A DNA stretch of 57,931 nucleotides. Source: a virus. Below, one piece after another: positions 30,590 to 53,476 of this stretch. The position numbers and the translations under genes were made by a program. Within the stretch, counting starts at the first letter, position 1, and every line of letters starts with the position of its first letter. The stretch is from positions 1 to 57,931 of IMG/VR virus record IMGVR_UViG_3300047469_000176, one strand, 5' to 3'. The notes under the pieces were generated by a model. That model searched no databases. It was not told the DNA's origin and worked only from the letters and a program-made list of their open reading frames with translations.

Positions 30590-30825
30590 GCTGCTGCCCT
30601 GCCCTTTTTTTGGCGCAGCCAAGGGCGTGTGCTGGTCGGCGCTTCCACTGTCTCGATGCCCTGAGCCAGGCATTGATGCGACGAATTAAGGACGCCGGTG
30701 TGAAGTATTCCGAAACCCACTCGCCGCCAATTGCCCGCTCCATCAAGCAGCAATACCTCCCCTTCAAACCGGTCCATTGCCACATCAACACCGGCGACGA
30801 GTACTGCGTTTTCTCCTGAATTCAT
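30586..30825 (-). CDS. Small phage protein, function unknown
   Basis: 79 residues. Both ends are coupled: its start forms ATGA with the recombinase stop and its stop forms ATGA with the next start, which is the main evidence that it is a gene. The first half is beta-like (NAVLVAGVDVAMDRFEGEVLLLDG), the C-terminus basic (RPWLRQKKGRAAA). No family recognised. Confidence 0.6.
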   Translation of the reverse strand: MNSGENAVLVAGVDVAMDRFEGEVLLLDGAGNWRRVGFGILHTGVLNSSHQCLAQGIETVEAPTSTRPWLRQKKGRAAA

Positions 30826-32123
30826 GCTTTTGAAACCTCGCCATTCACAATGTTAGAAACAGCCTCGCAGCCCTCGCCGGTCGTGGCCTGCGCAGGGTTT
30901 TGCGAATCTTCATATTGGGCGTCTGTCAGGTTGTGAATCGCCTTGAAGCCGCGTTCATCTAACCAGTTGTGCCACTTCTCCAGAGCCGCCAGACGTTGCG
31001 CGCGCGCCTGAGTGTTGATGTACGTGCTGGCGATCTTGCCCAGCGAGTGGTTCAGCAACATCTCCCCGATGTGCCCGTCAATGCCCAGGTCAGTCCACGC
31101 GGTGCGGGCTACCTTGCGCAGGTCGTGGCTGGTCCATTCGCCCTGCCCTATCCGGGTGAACACGCTGCTGGCCTGACCTTCGCTCAGCGCACGGCCGCGG
31201 CGTGACGGGAACAGGTAGATGCCTTCGTAGCCATTGGCGAGCTGGGTTGCCCGGTACCGGCTCAGCATGGCCTTGGCCTGCGCAGTCAACGGCAGGCGGT
31301 GCTCCGTGCGGGTCTTGGTGTTCTCGGCGGGAATGAACCACTCGGCGTCAGTGATCGAGATATCGTTCCAGCGCGCCAGACGGGTCTCGCCGACGCGCGT
31401 CCCATGGCACAGCATCATCAGCGCCAGCATGGCCTCGGCCGGGGTCTGCTCGAACAGATCGGCGAGCATCGGCACGACTTCGACCAGGTGCACACCGCGC
31501 AGCCGGGCCGCCTTGGGTACGATGCGCGCCTTGGTGAAGTCGACGAACTTCATACCGGCCATGGGGTTGCTGTCGATCAGGCCCAGCTTCTGCGCTTGAC
31601 GGAACGCGACCACTAGCAGGCCGAACAACTGACGCACGTAGGACAGGGACAGTTCCTGCTGCGCGGGCCACATCAGCTCCTTATCGAGCACGGCGGCGGT
31701 GAGGCTTCGAATCGGTGTCGACTCGAGCCGTGGCTTCAGGTGGCACTTGATCGCGGACAGCGCTCCGGTCTTGCGCTTGGTGGAAAGCGAACGGTCCCGA
31801 CCCATACGATCGCCGTACCATTCCAGCAACTGGCCGCACGTAGCCAAGCCGCCGACGGCGACAGCCGCCTCCGGATCATGCAGCAGCCGCTGACGCAGCG
31901 CGGGCAGCTCAGCCACCACAGCAGCGGCACCCAGATCAGGCCAGCGGGCGATGTGATTCCACGCCTTGCCTTTCACCAGATACCACGACCCCCGCTGGCG
32001 ATCCTGCCTGAAGCGCAGGTACAGGCCCGGGTGGCGCGGATCACGCAGGTCGTGCACGGACAGATCGGCGGCCTGCCGACGGATCTCGGCATCGGACAGT
32101 TTCACGGCTCGGGTCTTGCTCAC
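30822..32123 (-). CDS. Second tyrosine recombinase
   Basis: 433 residues from GTG 32123, which overlaps the VRR-NUC stop (GTGA). Complete catalytic set: Arg in HGTRVGETRLARW, TSHDLRKVART, LLNHSLGKIAS and Tyr in ASTYINTQAR. N-terminal DUF4102-like part (DAEIRRQAADLS...GLYLRFRQDR). It is inside the early replication/recombination operon, not at an attachment site, so it is more likely a lytic-phase enzyme (resolution of multimers or recombination) than the integrase. Confidence 0.9.
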   Translation of the reverse strand: MSKTRAVKLSDAEIRRQAADLSVHDLRDPRHPGLYLRFRQDRQRGSWYLVKGKAWNHIARWPDLGAAAVVAELPALRQRLLHDPEAAVAVGGLATCGQLLEWYGDRMGRDRSLSTKRKTGALSAIKCHLKPRLESTPIRSLTAAVLDKELMWPAQQELSLSYVRQLFGLLVVAFRQAQKLGLIDSNPMAGMKFVDFTKARIVPKAARLRGVHLVEVVPMLADLFEQTPAEAMLALMMLCHGTRVGETRLARWNDISITDAEWFIPAENTKTRTEHRLPLTAQAKAMLSRYRATQLANGYEGIYLFPSRRGRALSEGQASSVFTRIGQGEWTSHDLRKVARTAWTDLGIDGHIGEMLLNHSLGKIASTYINTQARAQRLAALEKWHNWLDERGFKAIHNLTDAQYEDSQNPAQATTGEGCEAVSNIVNGEVSKA

Positions 32124-32551
32124 GCAGCCACCACTGTCTGAGGGAGTAGGACATAGGCCCGAATGTGCTCCATGGCGTCGAAGTGCCCACGGCACACGAT
32201 GGCCAGATAGCCCTGCTCATTAAGGCGTCGGATGCAAGCGTGCTGACCGGCCGAGACCGGCGCGTCGTTGGGCGGCGTGGCCTTGAATTCGATGTACAGG
32301 CCGAAATATCCGCCGCGGGCCATCGTCAGGACCAGATCGAGGATGCCTGCTTTCACGCCCTGGGCTTTCAGCTTGGCCGCTGTCGCCTTGTGCCGATGGC
32401 CGCCGTTCGGTACGTGGTAGATGTTTGCGAAGACGTCCGGCATGCAGAGCTCGAGCTCTTTCATCAGCGCGGCCTGCTCCAGACCTTCACGGTCAACCGG
32501 CTTGGCCCGGGGCCTGAGCGGCTTGTACTGCTTCAGTTTCGCCGTGATCAC
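32120..32551 (-). CDS. VRR-NUC domain nuclease
   Basis: 143 residues. The YHVPNGGHRHKATAAKLKAQGVKAGILDLVL...YIEFKA arrangement contains the VRR-NUC catalytic residues (G-D/E-x-K type: ILDLVLTMARGG...YIEFKA). Such phage nucleases act on branched DNA during replication or packaging. Sits between DUF1364 and the recombinase, all coupled, forming a DNA-processing block. Confidence 0.88.
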   Translation of the reverse strand: MITAKLKQYKPLRPRAKPVDREGLEQAALMKELELCMPDVFANIYHVPNGGHRHKATAAKLKAQGVKAGILDLVLTMARGGYFGLYIEFKATPPNDAPVSAGQHACIRRLNEQGYLAIVCRGHFDAMEHIRAYVLLPQTVVAA

Positions 32552-37261: not shown

Positions 37262-37684
37262 TCAGGCCACCTTCACTGATGCTTTCAGCGTTGCCAGCGC
37301 TTCTTCTGCGTGGGCAATCTCCTTCAGGATTCGAGCGCGCTCGATCTGGTCTACCCGGCCGTCGGACATGGCGGCATGTGTCTCCACTGTCACCTCGGCA
37401 AATTCCAACGCCGCGCGACCCAATGCCTGATGAATGTCGATTGCGGCGGGCTGCACCTGCGGCACGATCGCGTAGCCGAACTCGCCCGCCAGCGCTTCAA
37501 GCGGGCGCATATCGTTCGTGTGCAGCAGTAGCGCGTAGAGGTGTTTCACGTTGAACCAGTGCTTGTCGTAGTTCGCATTTGCTCGCTGGAGCAGGCTGAC
37601 GGGGGGCATGCCCATCAACGTCGCGAGGTTCTTGGTGTCCGCTTCGTCTACAACCGCGTCACACGCCTTCAGAAAATCCTGCAT
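37262..37684 (-). CDS. CII-like phage regulatory protein (CP76 type)
   Basis: 140 residues from ATG 37684 (GAGG upstream). LKACDAVVDEADTKNLATLMGMPPVSLLQRANANYDKHWFNVKHLYALLLHTNDMRPLEALAGEFGY-like pattern, cut here into parts, is the CP76/phage CII regulator arrangement: an HTH near 20-45 and a following 'RPLEALA' helix. In lambda-type switches it would promote lysogeny establishment. It is second in the cro operon, the lambda cII place. Confidence 0.65.
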   Translation of the reverse strand: MQDFLKACDAVVDEADTKNLATLMGMPPVSLLQRANANYDKHWFNVKHLYALLLHTNDMRPLEALAGEFGYAIVPQVQPAAIDIHQALGRAALEFAEVTVETHAAMSDGRVDQIERARILKEIAHAEEALATLKASVKVA

Positions 37685-37750
37685 CCCTAAAACCTCAAAT
37701 TTGTTTAAGTGGCTCACTGCCAGCACGCGTTGCAAAATGTTTCTACCGGA

Positions 37751-37993
37751 TCAGCTGGCAACGGCCGAATGAGACTGTTCTTCTTTCGGATAAAGATCGG
37801 GACGCAGCTCGTGTCGGGTTACTTGGCCAGCGACGGCGCGCTCGAAAGGGATCACGAGATCCGCTGGAACGCGCTGATTGCGATGAACGCATTGCCAGAT
37901 ACGTGGCTGACTCGTGTTACAGCGGCGGGCTAGCTCTGCTTGACCACCGGCCAAACGAACCACTTTTTCGACGGGTCTTTCTTTCTTCGGCAT
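37751..37993 (-). CDS. Cro-like repressor (YdaS/Cro type)
   Basis: 80 residues from ATG 37993. HTH region: VVRLAGGQAELARRCNTSQPRIWQCV followed by VPADLVIPFERAV, a YdaS/Cro-like single-domain DNA-binding protein. It is divergent from cI across an operator region, is the first gene of the early leftward operon, and would bind the same ATAAC-N4-GTTAT operators. Confidence 0.85.
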   Translation of the reverse strand: MPKKERPVEKVVRLAGGQAELARRCNTSQPRIWQCVHRNQRVPADLVIPFERAVAGQVTRHELRPDLYPKEEQSHSAVAS

Positions 37994-38021
37994 GTTCGTG
38001 CCCCTATGAGTCATACACGGA

Positions 38022-38084
38022 ATGATAACTCAAGTTATGAACAAGGCAAACACATGTTATTTGAGTACCAATAACCTGTGTTTT
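38022..38084. promoter_or_regulatory. cI-cro operator region (OR-like) with leftward promoter
   Basis: Three operators of the type ATAAC-N4-GTTAT: 38025-38038 (ATAACTCAAGTTAT), 38047-38060 (CAAACACATGTTAT) and 38071-38084 (ATAACCTGTGTTTT), with starts 22 and 24 bp apart. A minus-strand promoter TTGCCT (38049-38044)-N16-TATCAT (38027-38022) for cro overlaps the first operator in its -10/spacer, the standard set-up for repression by CI. Confidence 0.8.
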
Positions 38085-38096
38085 ACCCTTCGGGGC

Positions 38097-38774
38097 ATGA
38101 ATACGAAGCTCGAAACGCTCAAAGATCGAATACTGGGTAGGCGGACGGAACTGCAACTGAGTCAGGCGCAGCTGGCCGAGCGCGCGGGCGTCAGCCAAGT
38201 AACAATCCAACACCTTGAAAGCGGCCGGAATGCCACCTCTAAGAAGATGGTGGATATAGGTCGCGCCTTAGGCGTGACGGCGGAATGGTTGACGACGGGC
38301 GAGAATGGCCGAGCACACCACTCGAAACCTGCGGCTGACCAATCCAACGTTGAGCCCGGCCCCCCCATCACCACAGCCGCTCGAAAGATCGACATCATGG
38401 GCACTGCCCAGATGGGCCCGGACGGTCATTGGGTGGGACTTGAGGACGCCGGCGGCTGGGTTGAGACCTGGTCTCGCGATGCCGATGCCTACGCCCTACT
38501 CCTTCGCGGAGACTCGATGGCGCCAGCGATCCGGAGCGGCTGGGTTGCCGTGTGCGAGCCAAATCACAGGCTCGTGCCTGGTGAGTACGTGATGGTCACG
38601 ACAGTCGATGAGCAGAGCATGGTCAAGGAGCTGTTGTTTCAGAACGATGAGGGCGTGAGCCTGATGTCGATCAACTCTGCGTACGAGCGGGTGACGATCC
38701 CATGGACGAAGATACAGACGATCCACTATGTAGGCGCCATTCTCGGCCCCAGCAAGGTTTTGGGTAGGATTTGA
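38097..38774 (+). CDS. cI: CI-like repressor, HTH plus S24 peptidase
   Basis: 225 residues from ATG 38097. Xre-type HTH (residues 21-47: LSQAQLAERAGVSQVTIQHLESG) and a LexA/S24 domain with catalytic Ser140 in RGDSMAPAI and Lys177 in SMVKELL. Keeps lysogeny and would self-cleave with RecA after DNA damage; a clear Ala-Gly cleavage site at the hinge was not seen. Probably autoregulates at the operators before it, and its message continues into the next two genes. Confidence 0.93.
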   Translation: MNTKLETLKDRILGRRTELQLSQAQLAERAGVSQVTIQHLESGRNATSKKMVDIGRALGVTAEWLTTGENGRAHHSKPAADQSNVEPGPPITTAARKIDIMGTAQMGPDGHWVGLEDAGGWVETWSRDADAYALLLRGDSMAPAIRSGWVAVCEPNHRLVPGEYVMVTTVDEQSMVKELLFQNDEGVSLMSINSAYERVTIPWTKIQTIHYVGAILGPSKVLGRI

Positions 38775-38883
38775 GAGGTGGCTGGGTACGTAGGTGGGAT
38801 AAAACAAAGTCTCAGGGATGCCGCGGAACCAGCATCTCCGATGCAATAACCTAAAGAAATCACACTTAAAGGGAATAGTGAAA

Positions 38884-39939
38884 ATGGCATCGGAACGCAA
38901 ACCAGTCACAATCCATTACAGAAAATTTTCCCGTCCTGACGGGGTGACCACAACGCTTGAGAGCATGATCCGATCTGCGATGGACTCCATCGGACAATCT
39001 GGAAGCGCCATAAAAAGCCGATACCTCGAGCGGCTTTATGAGCAAGGAAACGACAGCTTATTTATCAACTGGTACACCGACTCCGACCAACATACAAACT
39101 TTGTGTTCGGCGATATTCTGCACTTCACAAAGGGCCATCTTCAGGCGTTATGTCAGACAGCAGACGATACCGCCGAGCTCGTCCCAGTCCATCAGTTGCG
39201 AGCGCCTGAACAATCAGAGTATGTCCATTCTGAGATGTTCTGGATGGTGAAGGACGACCATGCATTTATCGTCCAGAGTATGTCGCTCAAAACCGCTGAG
39301 TTCGAAGAATACTTGTCGTGGCTACTGAAAAACAAAACCTCGGTTCTGCCAGCTACGGCCGCTATCACGCTGAATGCGAAATTTGATGTGGAAGAAGTCG
39401 GAGGGGACCTGGAGGATATCCAAGAAATCATCATCGGAGGCGTAGCAACGCCGCCGCCAACGATTCCCGATCAGCCTCTCCAGACCGTGGAGAGAGTCAG
39501 CGAAGTGACTCAGGCCGGACAGATTGATACCGGTAGGAGGACTGGGTGGGCGACGGCGAGAAAGATTTTAAGCGAACTACTCGGTGGAGACGCCAACGTA
39601 GCCTCCCTCATGGAAACAGTGCCTCCCGATGCCGAGCTCAATGTCCAGGTGCACATCGGGTTCCAAACGAAGAAGAGAAAGATCGATCGTGTCGCGCTTG
39701 CACAGCTCGAAACAGGTCTCCGAAACCTGCCAGACAGTCAGCTGCAGGTAAAGGCAAAGGGTGGAAAAATCGGTGCAGACGGCTCGATCCGGCTGCACCA
39801 TAACGCTTCTATCCGCCTAATTAAGGCCCAGGATGGGGAGAACCAGATCATTGGTACGCTTTTAGACCCCACTGATGTGCAGCGTGCTACAGTTGAAGCG
39901 TATTCAAATTTCCTTGCAAATGGGAAAATACCCGAGTAG
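38884..39939 (+). CDS. Rex-like cytoplasmic protein (RexA position)
   Basis: 351 residues from ATG 38884, 110 bp after cI on the same strand, no terminator between. No membrane segments. The N-terminal half is mixed alpha/beta (SLFINWYTDSDQHTNFVFGD, SEMFWMVKDDHAFIVQSMSL); after a Pro-rich linker (TPPPTIPDQP) a C-terminal domain begins (ARKILSELLGGDANVASLME, then DAELNVQVHIGFQTKKRKID). The order of these blocks is reminiscent of lambda RexA but identity is low. With the four-TM protein after it, it may form a superinfection exclusion system expressed in the lysogen. Confidence 0.55.
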   Translation: MASERKPVTIHYRKFSRPDGVTTTLESMIRSAMDSIGQSGSAIKSRYLERLYEQGNDSLFINWYTDSDQHTNFVFGDILHFTKGHLQALCQTADDTAELVPVHQLRAPEQSEYVHSEMFWMVKDDHAFIVQSMSLKTAEFEEYLSWLLKNKTSVLPATAAITLNAKFDVEEVGGDLEDIQEIIIGGVATPPPTIPDQPLQTVERVSEVTQAGQIDTGRRTGWATARKILSELLGGDANVASLMETVPPDAELNVQVHIGFQTKKRKIDRVALAQLETGLRNLPDSQLQVKAKGGKIGADGSIRLHHNASIRLIKAQDGENQIIGTLLDPTDVQRATVEAYSNFLANGKIPE

Positions 39940-39944
39940 GCATC

Positions 39945-40529
39945 ATGCGGCTCATCATTCTCTCCAAAATAGCTGCGGTCATCCTCCCTCTTGCGTCTGG
40001 GGTAGCCGCTGCATTCTGGACGCCTTTGGCGTTCTGGTTCGACATGAAAGAGGGGCTGATAGCCTTTCTGGGCTTTCTTTGTGCCGCTGTTGTCCAGGTA
40101 ATGCCGATCACGGCAAATTTTTTGCAGTCAGATCAGTTGAACCCGACGGAAGCGGAGAGGCTGACGCGGTCCCTGACCAAGCAGCAGCATTATTGGGTCG
40201 CGCTATTGAGCTGTGCGATCTTCGCCATGCTGGTCATCATCATCAGTTCCGCACTGAAAGCGCGCCTCGAATCGCTCACAGATCAATGGTACGGCCTGAC
40301 TTATGCGAGCATTGCCTGCTTCCTGATAGCTAGCACTACCTGTTTCGTCATGGTGAAAATGCTTGGTTTGTTCGAGGGAATGCTTTCTCTGCATCACTTG
40401 CGGGGTGAGTTGGTGATCAACGCCGCCAAGCGAGCAGCGGCGGTTAAAGTCAAGGCGGTTCAAGTTGACCTGAGATCTACCAAGTCACTGCCCAAAGACT
40501 ACGGCAGGGTACTCCCTCCTCAGCCCTAA
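39945..40529 (+). CDS. Four-TM membrane protein (RexB position)
   Basis: 194 residues, starting 5 bp after the previous stop. Four predicted membrane helices: about 3-25 (LIILSKIAAVILPLASGVAAAF), 38-59, 83-104 (YWVALLSCAIFAMLVIIISS) and 115-140, with a basic cytoplasmic tail. RexB of lambda is also a four-TM protein behind a cytoplasmic partner in the cI operon. No sequence family recognised. A terminator follows at 40590. Confidence 0.6.
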   Translation: MRLIILSKIAAVILPLASGVAAAFWTPLAFWFDMKEGLIAFLGFLCAAVVQVMPITANFLQSDQLNPTEAERLTRSLTKQQHYWVALLSCAIFAMLVIIISSALKARLESLTDQWYGLTYASIACFLIASTTCFVMVKMLGLFEGMLSLHHLRGELVINAAKRAAAVKVKAVQVDLRSTKSLPKDYGRVLPPQP

Positions 40530-40589: not shown

Positions 40590-40615
40590 AATGCCCGCCA
40601 GCGCGGGCATTTTTG
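40590..40615 (+). terminator. Terminator of the cI operon
   Basis: ATGCCCGC-(CAGC)-GCGGGCAT stem followed by TTTTT, 60 bp after the four-TM gene. It ends the lysogenic transcript cI-rexA-like-rexB-like. Confidence 0.9.
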
Positions 40616-40711: not shown

Positions 40712-40963
40712 ATGGCAAAGGCAAACTCGATTCCACCAGCAGCTCAGACCACTTACGGCATGCTCGGCATGCGCGTCCAGGCGATCATCAACTCTCCCAA
40801 AGCGCAGAAAGCCAAGGCCGCGCTGCTGGAGCGATTACCTACGGACAGGCCTGAGGATTGGGATCAACTGCTGGACGAGATTGCCGAGAATGACCATGTG
40901 ACCATTGCTCACCGTGACGACGGTCATGTTCAGGTCTTCTGGACCGTACCGAAGGAAGACTGA
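40712..40963 (+). CDS. DUF1654 family protein, SOS controlled
   Basis: 83 residues: YGMLGMRVQAIINSPKAQKAKAALLERLP, EDWDQLLDEIAENDHVTI and a terminal VFWTVP follow the DUF1654 pattern known from pseudomonads and their phages. A strong ribosome site (CGGAGG) precedes ATG 40712, a LexA box lies in the promoter, and terminators lie on both sides, so it is a single-gene SOS unit. Function unknown; a DNA-damage related role is inferred from control alone. Confidence 0.88.
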   Translation: MAKANSIPPAAQTTYGMLGMRVQAIINSPKAQKAKAALLERLPTDRPEDWDQLLDEIAENDHVTIAHRDDGHVQVFWTVPKED

Positions 40964-42025: not shown

Positions 42026-42232
42026 ATGGCTCAGTTCAACATCGACAACCACCTCAGCAACGGCAAGCGCCTCGAATGGCTTGCCCTGCCAGATACAGGC
42101 GAGCGCGCTGACGAAGTAGTCAGCAAAGTGAAGCAGGCAGCCATCGACAAGTTTGGCGCCCTCGTCTACTTCAATCGCTGGGAGCACGTTGTGGCTAGCA
42201 ACGGCTACGTCACCGTGCGGATGTATGCGTGA
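42026..42232 (+). CDS. Small early protein, function unknown
   Basis: 68 residues, start ATG 42026 preceded by CGGAGATAGGAA. MAQFNIDNHLSNGKRLEWLALPDTGERADEV then a helix and strands; no family recognised. First gene of the plus-strand early operon, overlapping the next start by TGATG. Early proteins at this place often interfere with host functions. Confidence 0.6.
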   Translation: MAQFNIDNHLSNGKRLEWLALPDTGERADEVVSKVKQAAIDKFGALVYFNRWEHVVASNGYVTVRMYA

Positions 42233-42300
42233 TGGACGATTTCACTGATGCAGCTTGGCAACAGGCTGCATTGGAAAATCCCCCAACCCGAGGCATCACC

Positions 42301-42747
42301 ATGTTAGGAATTTTCGGAAAGAAGTTTAAAAAGGCGTCTGCTGAGGCAACCGCGGCCATGTCGAAAAACGTGAACCGTGACCTGATGCAGGCCGTCGTTT
42401 ATGGCGCGATCTTCATCGCCGCTGCTGACGGCGACTTGGCTGAATCGGAACTGAAGAAAACCGAGAAGCTGATCGCAAACAACCCGCTGCTCAAGGGCTT
42501 CGGCGCCGAGCTGAGCGACACGATCGACCGTGCAGAAGCGGACTTCAAAGACGGTGGCCGCCGCATCCTGCGTCAGAACGCTGAGAAAGAACTGAGCGAT
42601 CTGAAGCACTCACCAGAAGAAGCGAAAACGGTGATGAACATCATGCTGACCATTGCAGATGAAGGCGGCATCGACGACGCCGAGCGCAAAGCCCTGGAGC
42701 AAGCCGCCAAGTGGCTAGGGCTGAACCTGAAAGACTTCGAAGACTGA
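42301..42747 (+). CDS. TerB-like protein
   Basis: 148 residues. LMQAVVYGAIFIAAADGDLAESELKKTEKLIANNP and IMLTIADEGGIDDAERKALEQAAKWLGL are the two acidic helical halves of the TerB/tellurite-resistance-like domain with Asp residues that may bind metal. MLGIFGKKFKK at 42301 is the usual family start; a coupled ATG at 42232 would add 23 residues. TerB-like proteins in phages are of unknown function. Confidence 0.75.
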   Translation: MLGIFGKKFKKASAEATAAMSKNVNRDLMQAVVYGAIFIAAADGDLAESELKKTEKLIANNPLLKGFGAELSDTIDRAEADFKDGGRRILRQNAEKELSDLKHSPEEAKTVMNIMLTIADEGGIDDAERKALEQAAKWLGLNLKDFED

Positions 42748-47944: not shown

Positions 47945-49081
47945 ATGAGCCAGCAGCATCAGATTCTGGTCGGCGACTGCATTGAGATGATGCGCACGCT
48001 GCCGGACAAGTCGGTTCACACCTGCGTGACGAGTCCGCCGTACTTCGGCCTGCGCGATTATGGCGTAGAGGGTCAGATCGGCCTGGAAGAAACGCCCGCC
48101 GCATTCATCGCGCGACTAGTCGCCGTGTTCCGTGAAGTGCGTCGAGTACTCCGCGACGACGGCACGATCTGGGTGAACATGGGTGACAGCTATGCCGGTA
48201 GTTGGGGCGCGCATGACCGCGATGACATGGGATTGGGCGTGTCGGCGCTGAGTCAGCGCCAGGCTATGGCAAGCCAGCGGAAAGCCAAGATCACGAGCCA
48301 CGCCGAATACAAGCCGAAGGACCTGATGGGAATGCCGTGGCGATTGGCTTTCGCTCTACAGGATGACGGCTGGTACCTGAGACAAGACATCATCTGGCAC
48401 AAGCCAAACCCTATGCCTGAATCGACGCGCGACCGCTGCACCAAAGCTCACGAGTACCTGTTCCTGCTGAGCAAGTCGCGGCGGTATCACTGCGACATGC
48501 AGGCGATCCGCGAGCCGGCAGCTTACGGGCCGACGCCGACAGGTGTGGGTTTCGGTCATGGGTTCGATGCGGTACCAAAGCCAAGAGTGACCGTGCCGGC
48601 CGGGTGGGACACATCGACCGGAGCGGGCGGCCACGGCGCTTTCCACAAGGATGGTTCCGCCAGGTCGAATCGCGACTCGTTCCAGCGTGAAGGATCGAAG
48701 CGCGAGCAGACGATTCCAGGACAAAGCAAGGGCACGCATCGACCAGATCGAGAGCCGAGCAGCTGGGATCTGCTGACCAGAAACAAACGCAGCGTCTGGA
48801 CGGTGGCCACGCACAGTTTCAAGGGCGCCCACTTCGCCACCTTCCCGCCCGACTTGATCCGGCCTTGCATTCTGGCCGGCGCGCCGCGCGGTGGTGTGGT
48901 CCTGGACCCGTTCGGCGGCGCCGGGACCACATCGCTTGTTTCAATGCAGGAAGGCCGCCGGTCGATCCTGTGTGAGCTAAACCCCGAATACGCAGCAATG
49001 GCCAGAGCGCGCATCGACGCAGCCTGGCTTGATGGCGCGGCGCAGATGGATGTGTTCCACGATGCCGAGCCAGCCGCATGA
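47945..49081 (+). CDS. DNA methyltransferase (beta-type, SPPY motif)
   Basis: 378 residues. Catalytic motif IV is SPPY (residues 30-33), typical of N4-cytosine or N6-adenine methylases of the beta class; the SAM motif VVLDPFGGAGTT is near residue 320, so the order is IV...I (beta). Between are IWVNMGDSYAG and WHKPNPMPES. No cognate restriction gene lies beside it, so it is a solitary methylase, likely protecting phage DNA or altering host gene expression. Start ATG 47945. Confidence 0.93.
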   Translation: MSQQHQILVGDCIEMMRTLPDKSVHTCVTSPPYFGLRDYGVEGQIGLEETPAAFIARLVAVFREVRRVLRDDGTIWVNMGDSYAGSWGAHDRDDMGLGVSALSQRQAMASQRKAKITSHAEYKPKDLMGMPWRLAFALQDDGWYLRQDIIWHKPNPMPESTRDRCTKAHEYLFLLSKSRRYHCDMQAIREPAAYGPTPTGVGFGHGFDAVPKPRVTVPAGWDTSTGAGGHGAFHKDGSARSNRDSFQREGSKREQTIPGQSKGTHRPDREPSSWDLLTRNKRSVWTVATHSFKGAHFATFPPDLIRPCILAGAPRGGVVLDPFGGAGTTSLVSMQEGRRSILCELNPEYAAMARARIDAAWLDGAAQMDVFHDAEPAA

Positions 49082-52894: not shown

Positions 52895-52948
52895 CCCCTT
52901 CCCCATCTATCCATATGCCTGCCGGTGTACGGCGGGCGGGAGATTTCT

Positions 52949-53476
52949 GTGTCCGAATTAATGCGAGCCCAGGCTTTTTGCATCGCCGCGCACTGCGCCG
53001 TGGGTCAGAAGCGAAAATACACCGGGGAGGATTACTACCTTCACCCGATTGAGGTTGCCGAGCTGATTCAGGAGCATGCGACAAGCTTCACCAAAGAAAT
53101 GATTGTTGCTGCCCATCTGCATGACGTCGTGGAGGACACCCAAGTCGAGCTGTCAATAATCGCTCAACAGTTCGGCACGGTGGTTGCGGCATACGTTGAG
53201 CAGCTAACCGATGTGTCTCGACCCGAGGACGGCAACCGAGCGGCGCGCAAGGCAATCGATCTGGCGCATACCGCGCGGGCAAGTCCGCAAGCAAAGACAA
53301 TCAAGCTGGCCGACCTTGTCAGCAACACTCGCAGCATCGTCGAGCGCGATCCAGCGTTTGCCGTCACCTACCTGGCGGAGAAGCGACTGCTGCTTGAGGT
53401 GCTGAAGGAAGGCGACCAGAACCTGTACCGCATTGCCCATGAGCTTGCTCATTCCCAACCACTCAACCCCGCATAG
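52949..53476 (+). CDS. HD-domain hydrolase, (p)ppGpp hydrolase-like (MESH1/SpoT-HD)
   Basis: 175 residues from GTG 52949 (GGGAG 6 nt upstream). Motifs of the RSH hydrolase: KRKYTGEDYYLHPIEVA (His32), AHLHDVVEDT (H58-D59 and E62-D63, the HDxxED signature that marks hydrolase-competent enzymes) and TIKLADLVSNTRSI (Asp122). No synthetase domain, so it resembles stand-alone alarmone hydrolases. It may lower (p)ppGpp during infection or lysogeny. Confidence 0.85.
   Translation: MSELMRAQAFCIAAHCAVGQKRKYTGEDYYLHPIEVAELIQEHATSFTKEMIVAAHLHDVVEDTQVELSIIAQQFGTVVAAYVEQLTDVSRPEDGNRAARKAIDLAHTARASPQAKTIKLADLVSNTRSIVERDPAFAVTYLAEKRLLLEVLKEGDQNLYRIAHELAHSQPLNPA

Follow-up and report, generated by a model that had tools for sequence, protein, structure and literature searches.

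Among the RexAB-type systems that have been tested, the closest parallel by host and layout to the locus analyzed here, as judged from its published description, is RexABpp (PP_5643/PP_5644) of Pseudomonas putida prophage P1, which was published in January 2026 and in which defence requires both genes (PMC12894663). RexApp binds DNA and shows a RexA fold (Dali Z 8.8); RexBpp, a four-helix protein, brings about membrane damage and growth arrest upon overproduction of RexApp (PMC12894663). In phage lambda, RexA favours the lytic state, an effect that RexB opposes, and the main role of RexA may be to tune the lysis-lysogeny switch (PMC11077077). Genes 30/31 of Mycobacterium phage Sbash are an experimentally defined Rex-like pair in which gp31 is the membrane effector (PMC6426596), and the membrane protein is likewise the effector in the experimentally studied Rex-like pair 43/44 of CarolAnn (PMC6426606). 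In mycobacteriophage Butters gp30/gp31, as recounted in PMC12894663, the soluble protein is antiviral and the membrane protein restrains it. By the count of a recent paper, only five RexAB-like systems had been described (PMC12894663).

Here we describe a gene pair behind the cI repressor of a 57.9-kb IMG/VR viral record, the whole of which is called the window and the closest relatives of which are Pseudomonas prophages. We consider the pair likely to be a module of the RexAB type for superinfection exclusion (abortive infection), located within the prophage's cI operon. The Rex assignment draws its support from fold and gene organization, not from sequence: on those grounds the pair belongs with the RexAB-type systems, and it lies outside the lambda RexA and RexB sequence families.

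The immunity region

The cI-type lysogeny repressor (225 aa) is encoded at 38097..38774 on the + strand and is recognized by HTH_3 (5.8e-12), Peptidase_S24 (2e-15) and the transcriptional repressor family phrog_4 (1.5e-35), in agreement with a preliminary description that had placed a CI repressor upstream of the pair. Behind it on the same strand, after a gap of 109 bp, is the gene for a soluble protein of 351 aa (38884..39939), and 5 bp further on is that for a membrane protein of 194 aa (39945..40529). Both ORFs are as first described; the span originally given to the pair, 38097-40529, is right in its end, and its first position is the start of cI, the pair itself starting at 38884. We annotate the first gene as encoding a RexA-like putative infection sensor, based on phrog_3482, an AlphaFold model and the top PDB match of that model, and the second as encoding a RexB-like putative membrane effector, based on hydropathy, AlphaFold and its constant adjacency to the first gene in relatives. 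An in-frame ATG upstream, at 38818, would extend the RexA-like protein to 373 aa; we prefer the start at 38884 because close relatives start at that position.

The preliminary description had reported no terminator until 40590, and the first strong + strand terminator-like hairpin downstream is indeed at 40590..40611 (9 pairs, 6 of them G-C, followed by a T run), with weaker hairpins inside the membrane gene; on both strands of the region, 6 terminator-like hairpins were observed, against 3.4 +/- 1.9 expected in shuffles. No promoter-like site was found between cI and the gene pair. Probably, cI is the first gene of a cI-rexA-rexB operon, the transcript of which would end at the 40590-40611 hairpin. 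Immediately upstream of cI, an inverted repeat at 38048..38083 (AAACACATGTTATT-8-AATAACCTGTGTTT; 14-nt arms, 93% complementary) is a candidate repressor operator. Divergent from cI, on the - strand, is a Cro-like regulator of the YdaS family (37751..38014; PF15943 7.3e-19, phrog_35 3.1e-18), and on the same strand is a CII-type regulator (Phage_CP76; 37262..37735; PF06892 1.1e-23).

We also recorded a number of other features of the window. The terminal part of a permease gene (BPD_transp_2 family) occupies its first 250 bases, which we read as host DNA. A phage integrase gene (30822-32195, -; PF00589 1.4e-18) separates the head/tail genes from the immunity region and is not near an end of the record, and no tRNA was found in the 57.9 kb. 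Directly past the terminator-like hairpin is a gene for a DUF1654 protein (40712-40963, +; 3.8e-27), and a few genes past the pair is one for a TerB-domain protein (42229-42747, +; PF05099 3.1e-9, phrog_632 'tellurite resistance' 1.4e-46). A DNA methyltransferase (phrog_67; 47945-49081, +) is followed by an HNH endonuclease (PF13392; 49388-50113, +), the N-terminal start of which resembles a D5-like regulator profile, and an HD-domain protein (52925-53476, +; PF13328 3e-14) is encoded close to the right end.

Fold and sequence of the two proteins

Over residues 5-349 of its 351, the soluble protein matches phrog_3482 (7.4e-42), a family labeled 'unknown function'; no family match was obtained in Pfam, NCBIfam or PADLOC. 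It had no match at E<=10 to PF15969, the lambda RexA family, and none to phrog_12654; as a positive control, lambda RexA itself matched PF15969 at 1e-97. A BLOSUM local alignment of the soluble protein with lambda RexA was at chance level (25 of 300 shuffles were equally good), and no match to it came from HMM searches with the RexA proteins of lambda, Hafnia, Salmonella, Sbash and CarolAnn, or from profile-profile comparison with those of lambda, Sbash (gp30) and CarolAnn (gp44). Such sequence tests lack power for RexA homology, because a control profile comparison of the Sbash and CarolAnn proteins with lambda RexA, accepted relatives, gave no match either. PADLOC, NCBIfam and PDB sequence searches returned nothing informative for whichever protein of the pair was queried.

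To compare structures, we used an AlphaFold model of the soluble protein that was built from 52 relatives and is of moderate confidence (pLDDT 73, pTM 0.74). In a Foldseek search of the PDB, two chains of lambda RexA (8TWQ) ranked best (E 4.7e-5 and 2e-4, prob 1.00), and these were the sole PDB matches of the model with E <= 0.001. VIA-align of the model against 8TWQ gave Z 10.9 and an rmsd of 3.3 over 157 residues; in the rows below RexA were the kinetochore proteins Chl4/CENP-N (Z up to 6.8) and RdgC (Z 5.4), and the RexA crystallographers report RdgC and Chl4 as structural relatives of lambda RexA (PMC11077077). RdgC, a recombination-associated DNA-binding ring, has a fold in common with RexA and is the weaker match to our model; it differs from the soluble protein in being a recombination protein and in having no membrane partner. 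The crystallographers further propose that closed and open RexA differ in domain orientation (PMC11077077), and a difference of that kind would fit the low TM-scores of the model against RexA. The lambda RexA two-domain fold is therefore supported for the soluble protein as modeled, and the concern that the folds might prove unrelated is refuted for this half of the pair, lambda RexA being the top PDB match.

The R219A/K221A substitution in lambda RexA abolishes DNA binding (PMC11077077). In the chance-level pairwise alignment, K290-A-K292 of the soluble protein (codons at 39751..39759, +) falls opposite R219-A-K221, and we offer a possible correspondence of K290/K292 to R219/K221 as a proposal for mutagenesis only. 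The pI of the soluble protein is 5.4, compared with 6.1 and 5.6 for the DNA-binding relatives Sbash gp30 and CarolAnn gp44.

The four membrane helices first noted in the 194-residue protein are seen both in its hydropathy and in an AlphaFold model (pLDDT 79), in which the last helix is long and extends into the C-terminal tail. The protein matched neither PF15968 (RexB) at E<=10, a model that detects lambda RexB at 8.5e-92 as a positive control, nor phrog_14878; it had no convincing family match in Pfam or PHROGs and no match in profile comparison with the membrane proteins of Sbash and CarolAnn. When its model was searched against a viral structure library, no match reached E 0.001. Rank 3 was a 165-residue protein of Mycobacterium phage Sbash (E 0.07, weak), which by its length we take to be gp31, the sole annotated Sbash CDS of 165 residues. 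Rank 9 was a protein of Siphoviridae sp. ctylc9, and because a ctylc9 protein was also rank 1 for the soluble model in this library (E 7.7e-11), two independent searches indicate one phage that carries both halves. The membrane protein resembles RexB in topology and setting only: to this extent the RexB likeness that had been proposed holds, the weak similarity to Sbash gp31 being the best named structural lead. The RexBpp escape mutations (W25, F35, L55, S145, Y181) were tried as a family fingerprint and set aside as too weak, no member fitting all positions. The W-F spacing of 10 from RexBpp W25/F35 recurs in the membrane protein of the window (W31-F41).

Linkage, exchange and distribution of the pair

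We collected relatives from viral contigs, bacterial genomes and phage records and defined lineages as 90% clusters. The RexA-like family comprises 39 lineages, from Pseudomonas, Acinetobacter, enterobacteria, Marinobacter and alphaproteobacteria, and a membrane-protein gene is directly downstream in every one of them, at -32 to +47 bp in 36 of the 37 lineages in which the partner is longer than 140 aa. When the membrane protein alone was the query, every contig returned also carried the RexA-like gene. The two proteins are co-inherited, their divergence being correlated with a Pearson r of 0.86 (0 of 2000 permutations as high). In one relative (L039, 4001-5051) the RexA-like gene, frameshifted after approximately residue 200, is followed by an intact membrane gene (L155).

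Comparison with a related Pseudomonas prophage (L007) illustrates how the pair is exchanged. The window and L007 are 77.5% identical in DNA from 38881 to 40468, that is, from the start of the RexA-like gene to near the end of the membrane gene, whereas identity between the two cI proteins is only 23%, over 79 residues; a further stretch of similarity, apart from this one, takes in the CII-type gene. Because the block is shared next to dissimilar cI genes, it seems that the two genes are transferred together as one unit, and this is good evidence for their joint action.

A CI-like repressor was scored upstream, on the same strand and within approximately 1 kb, in at least 13 of the 39 lineages, a lower bound in that a number of contigs stop short and five proteins went into the CI model. 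Recurrence of the pair behind repressors elsewhere, which the preliminary description had singled out as informative, is thus borne out. The other 26 lineages did not score for a CI-like repressor, which suggests that the module can do without the cI operon. These counts bear on the possibility that the pair mainly tunes the switch of its own prophage, with the RexA-like protein binding DNA or the repressor and favouring induction, the membrane protein restraining it, and exclusion arising as a by-product. Lambda RexA is pro-lytic with RexB as its antagonist (PMC11077077), and the pair in the window is located behind cI, as such a role would have it; but approximately two thirds of the lineages are not scored behind a CI-like repressor, as in SfIV, where the pair is by lysis genes, and the presence of the block behind unrelated repressors argues against a repressor-specific role. 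We therefore consider switch tuning an unlikely main function, and prefer that of an exclusion module.

Relatives are also present in named phages. Perceval 43/42 (from a prophage of E. coli LF82), SfIV 49/48 and the Acinetobacter pairs have a phrog_3482 RexA-like protein and the same two-gene layout, are approximately 20% identical to the pair of the window, and are annotated as hypothetical or transmembrane. The gene order in Perceval (L002, L162) is cI, RexA-like gene, membrane gene, and the Perceval type was found in 42 of 5426 complete E. coli genomes. In the LF82 lysogen transcriptome, Perceval CI is 11-fold and the 'transmembrane protein' LF82_152 81-fold above the prophage background, and the expression list does not include the RexA-like gene (PMC9928086). 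From annotation and numbering, we infer that LF82_152 is the RexB-like gene of Perceval; with its level far above that of cI and the RexA-like gene unlisted, the membrane gene could have a separate promoter. A separate promoter is known for lambda rexB.

In Shigella phage SfIV the pair is by the lysis genes, not behind cI, and the membrane gene is shortened to 108 aa beside an IS1 transposase gene, the RexA-like gene being intact (L003, 3501-4324). The Acinetobacter phages carry the pair behind a repressor, and one copy is annotated 'DefenseFinder protein'; the membrane relative in Ab1656-2 is annotated 'holin-x' and has a weak Pfam holin match (E 0.088). Both this annotation and the SfIV location would favour a membrane protein that is holin-like or lysis-related, with its neighbour as a regulator. 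We rejected such a role, which we regard as very improbable, on three grounds: in the window, Perceval and the Acinetobacter phages the pair is in the immunity region behind cI; the Perceval gene that we take to be a relative is expressed in the lysogen (PMC9928086); and the constant partner of the membrane protein has a predicted RexA fold.

Membrane partners from other branches are 9-15% identical to that of the window. As a tentative proposal, which we think possible rather than probable, the RexA-fold sensor may be a widespread proteobacterial module that has combined with several membrane effectors unrelated to one another; RexAB would then be one example within a class of swappable sensor-plus-membrane-effector systems and not one conserved protein pair. 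No database that we searched labels the phrog_3482 branch as Rex, and in this sense the branch is new: a family in many proteobacterial prophages, previously of 'unknown function', is on the evidence of the model a RexA-fold family. With at least 39 lineages, including E. coli, Shigella and Acinetobacter prophages, RexAB-type pairs are much commoner than the count of five would imply. The family provides diverse natural variants for testing how RexA senses infection and how RexB is triggered, a question that dates from Benzer's work on T4 rII.

Proposed mechanism and comparison with known systems

Defence, DNA binding and sensor-triggered membrane damage have been shown by others for similar pairs, and it is by analogy with these that we propose a mechanism for the pair in the window. 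The two genes would be expressed at a low level with cI in the lysogen. The soluble RexA-like protein, by analogy with lambda RexA, would be a dimeric, DNA-binding sensor, and the 194-residue protein an inner-membrane four-helix bundle that stays silent until the sensor activates it. DNA or protein of an infecting phage would trigger the sensor, the triggered sensor would activate the membrane protein, and the ensuing membrane damage would lead to growth arrest, such that infection by the second phage fails.

The assignment of roles in this scheme could be reversed, with the soluble protein acting against the virus and the membrane protein only restraining it. One published Rex-like pair, that of Butters, operates in this way according to the account in PMC12894663; against this, RexABpp, Sbash and CarolAnn all use the membrane protein as the effector. 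We judge reversed roles to be improbable, slightly more so than switch tuning, and retain the membrane protein as the putative effector of a RexAB-type module.

Compared with lambda, the pair has the order and orientation of RexA and RexB behind cI, a RexA fold in the modeled soluble protein and a four-helix membrane partner, and the spacing of the genes is 109 and 5 bp where that of lambda is 112 bp (cI-rexA) and 15 bp (rexA-rexB). It differs in that the lambda proteins are 279 aa (RexA) and 144 aa (RexB), rather than 351 and 194 aa, and have no detectable sequence similarity to those of the window. Sbash gp30/gp31 and the pair gp44/gp43 of Gordonia phage CarolAnn similarly consist of a soluble protein (372 and 370 aa) and then a four-helix membrane protein, and the CarolAnn pair is co-transcribed with the repressor; profile comparison of either pair with that of the window shows no sequence similarity.

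RexABpp is likewise from a Pseudomonas prophage, is downstream of a CI-like repressor and combines a RexA-fold soluble protein with a four-helix membrane protein. Two extra genes separate RexABpp from its repressor, and RexApp is smaller, at 37.5 kDa tagged compared with 38.8 kDa untagged for the protein of the window; PP_5643/5644 were not identified by our searches of approximately 400 Pseudomonas genomes. The preliminary description had suggested a new or highly diverged exclusion system. It is diverged, and it is not a new kind, a Pseudomonas RexAB-type system having been published in January 2026 (PMC12894663).
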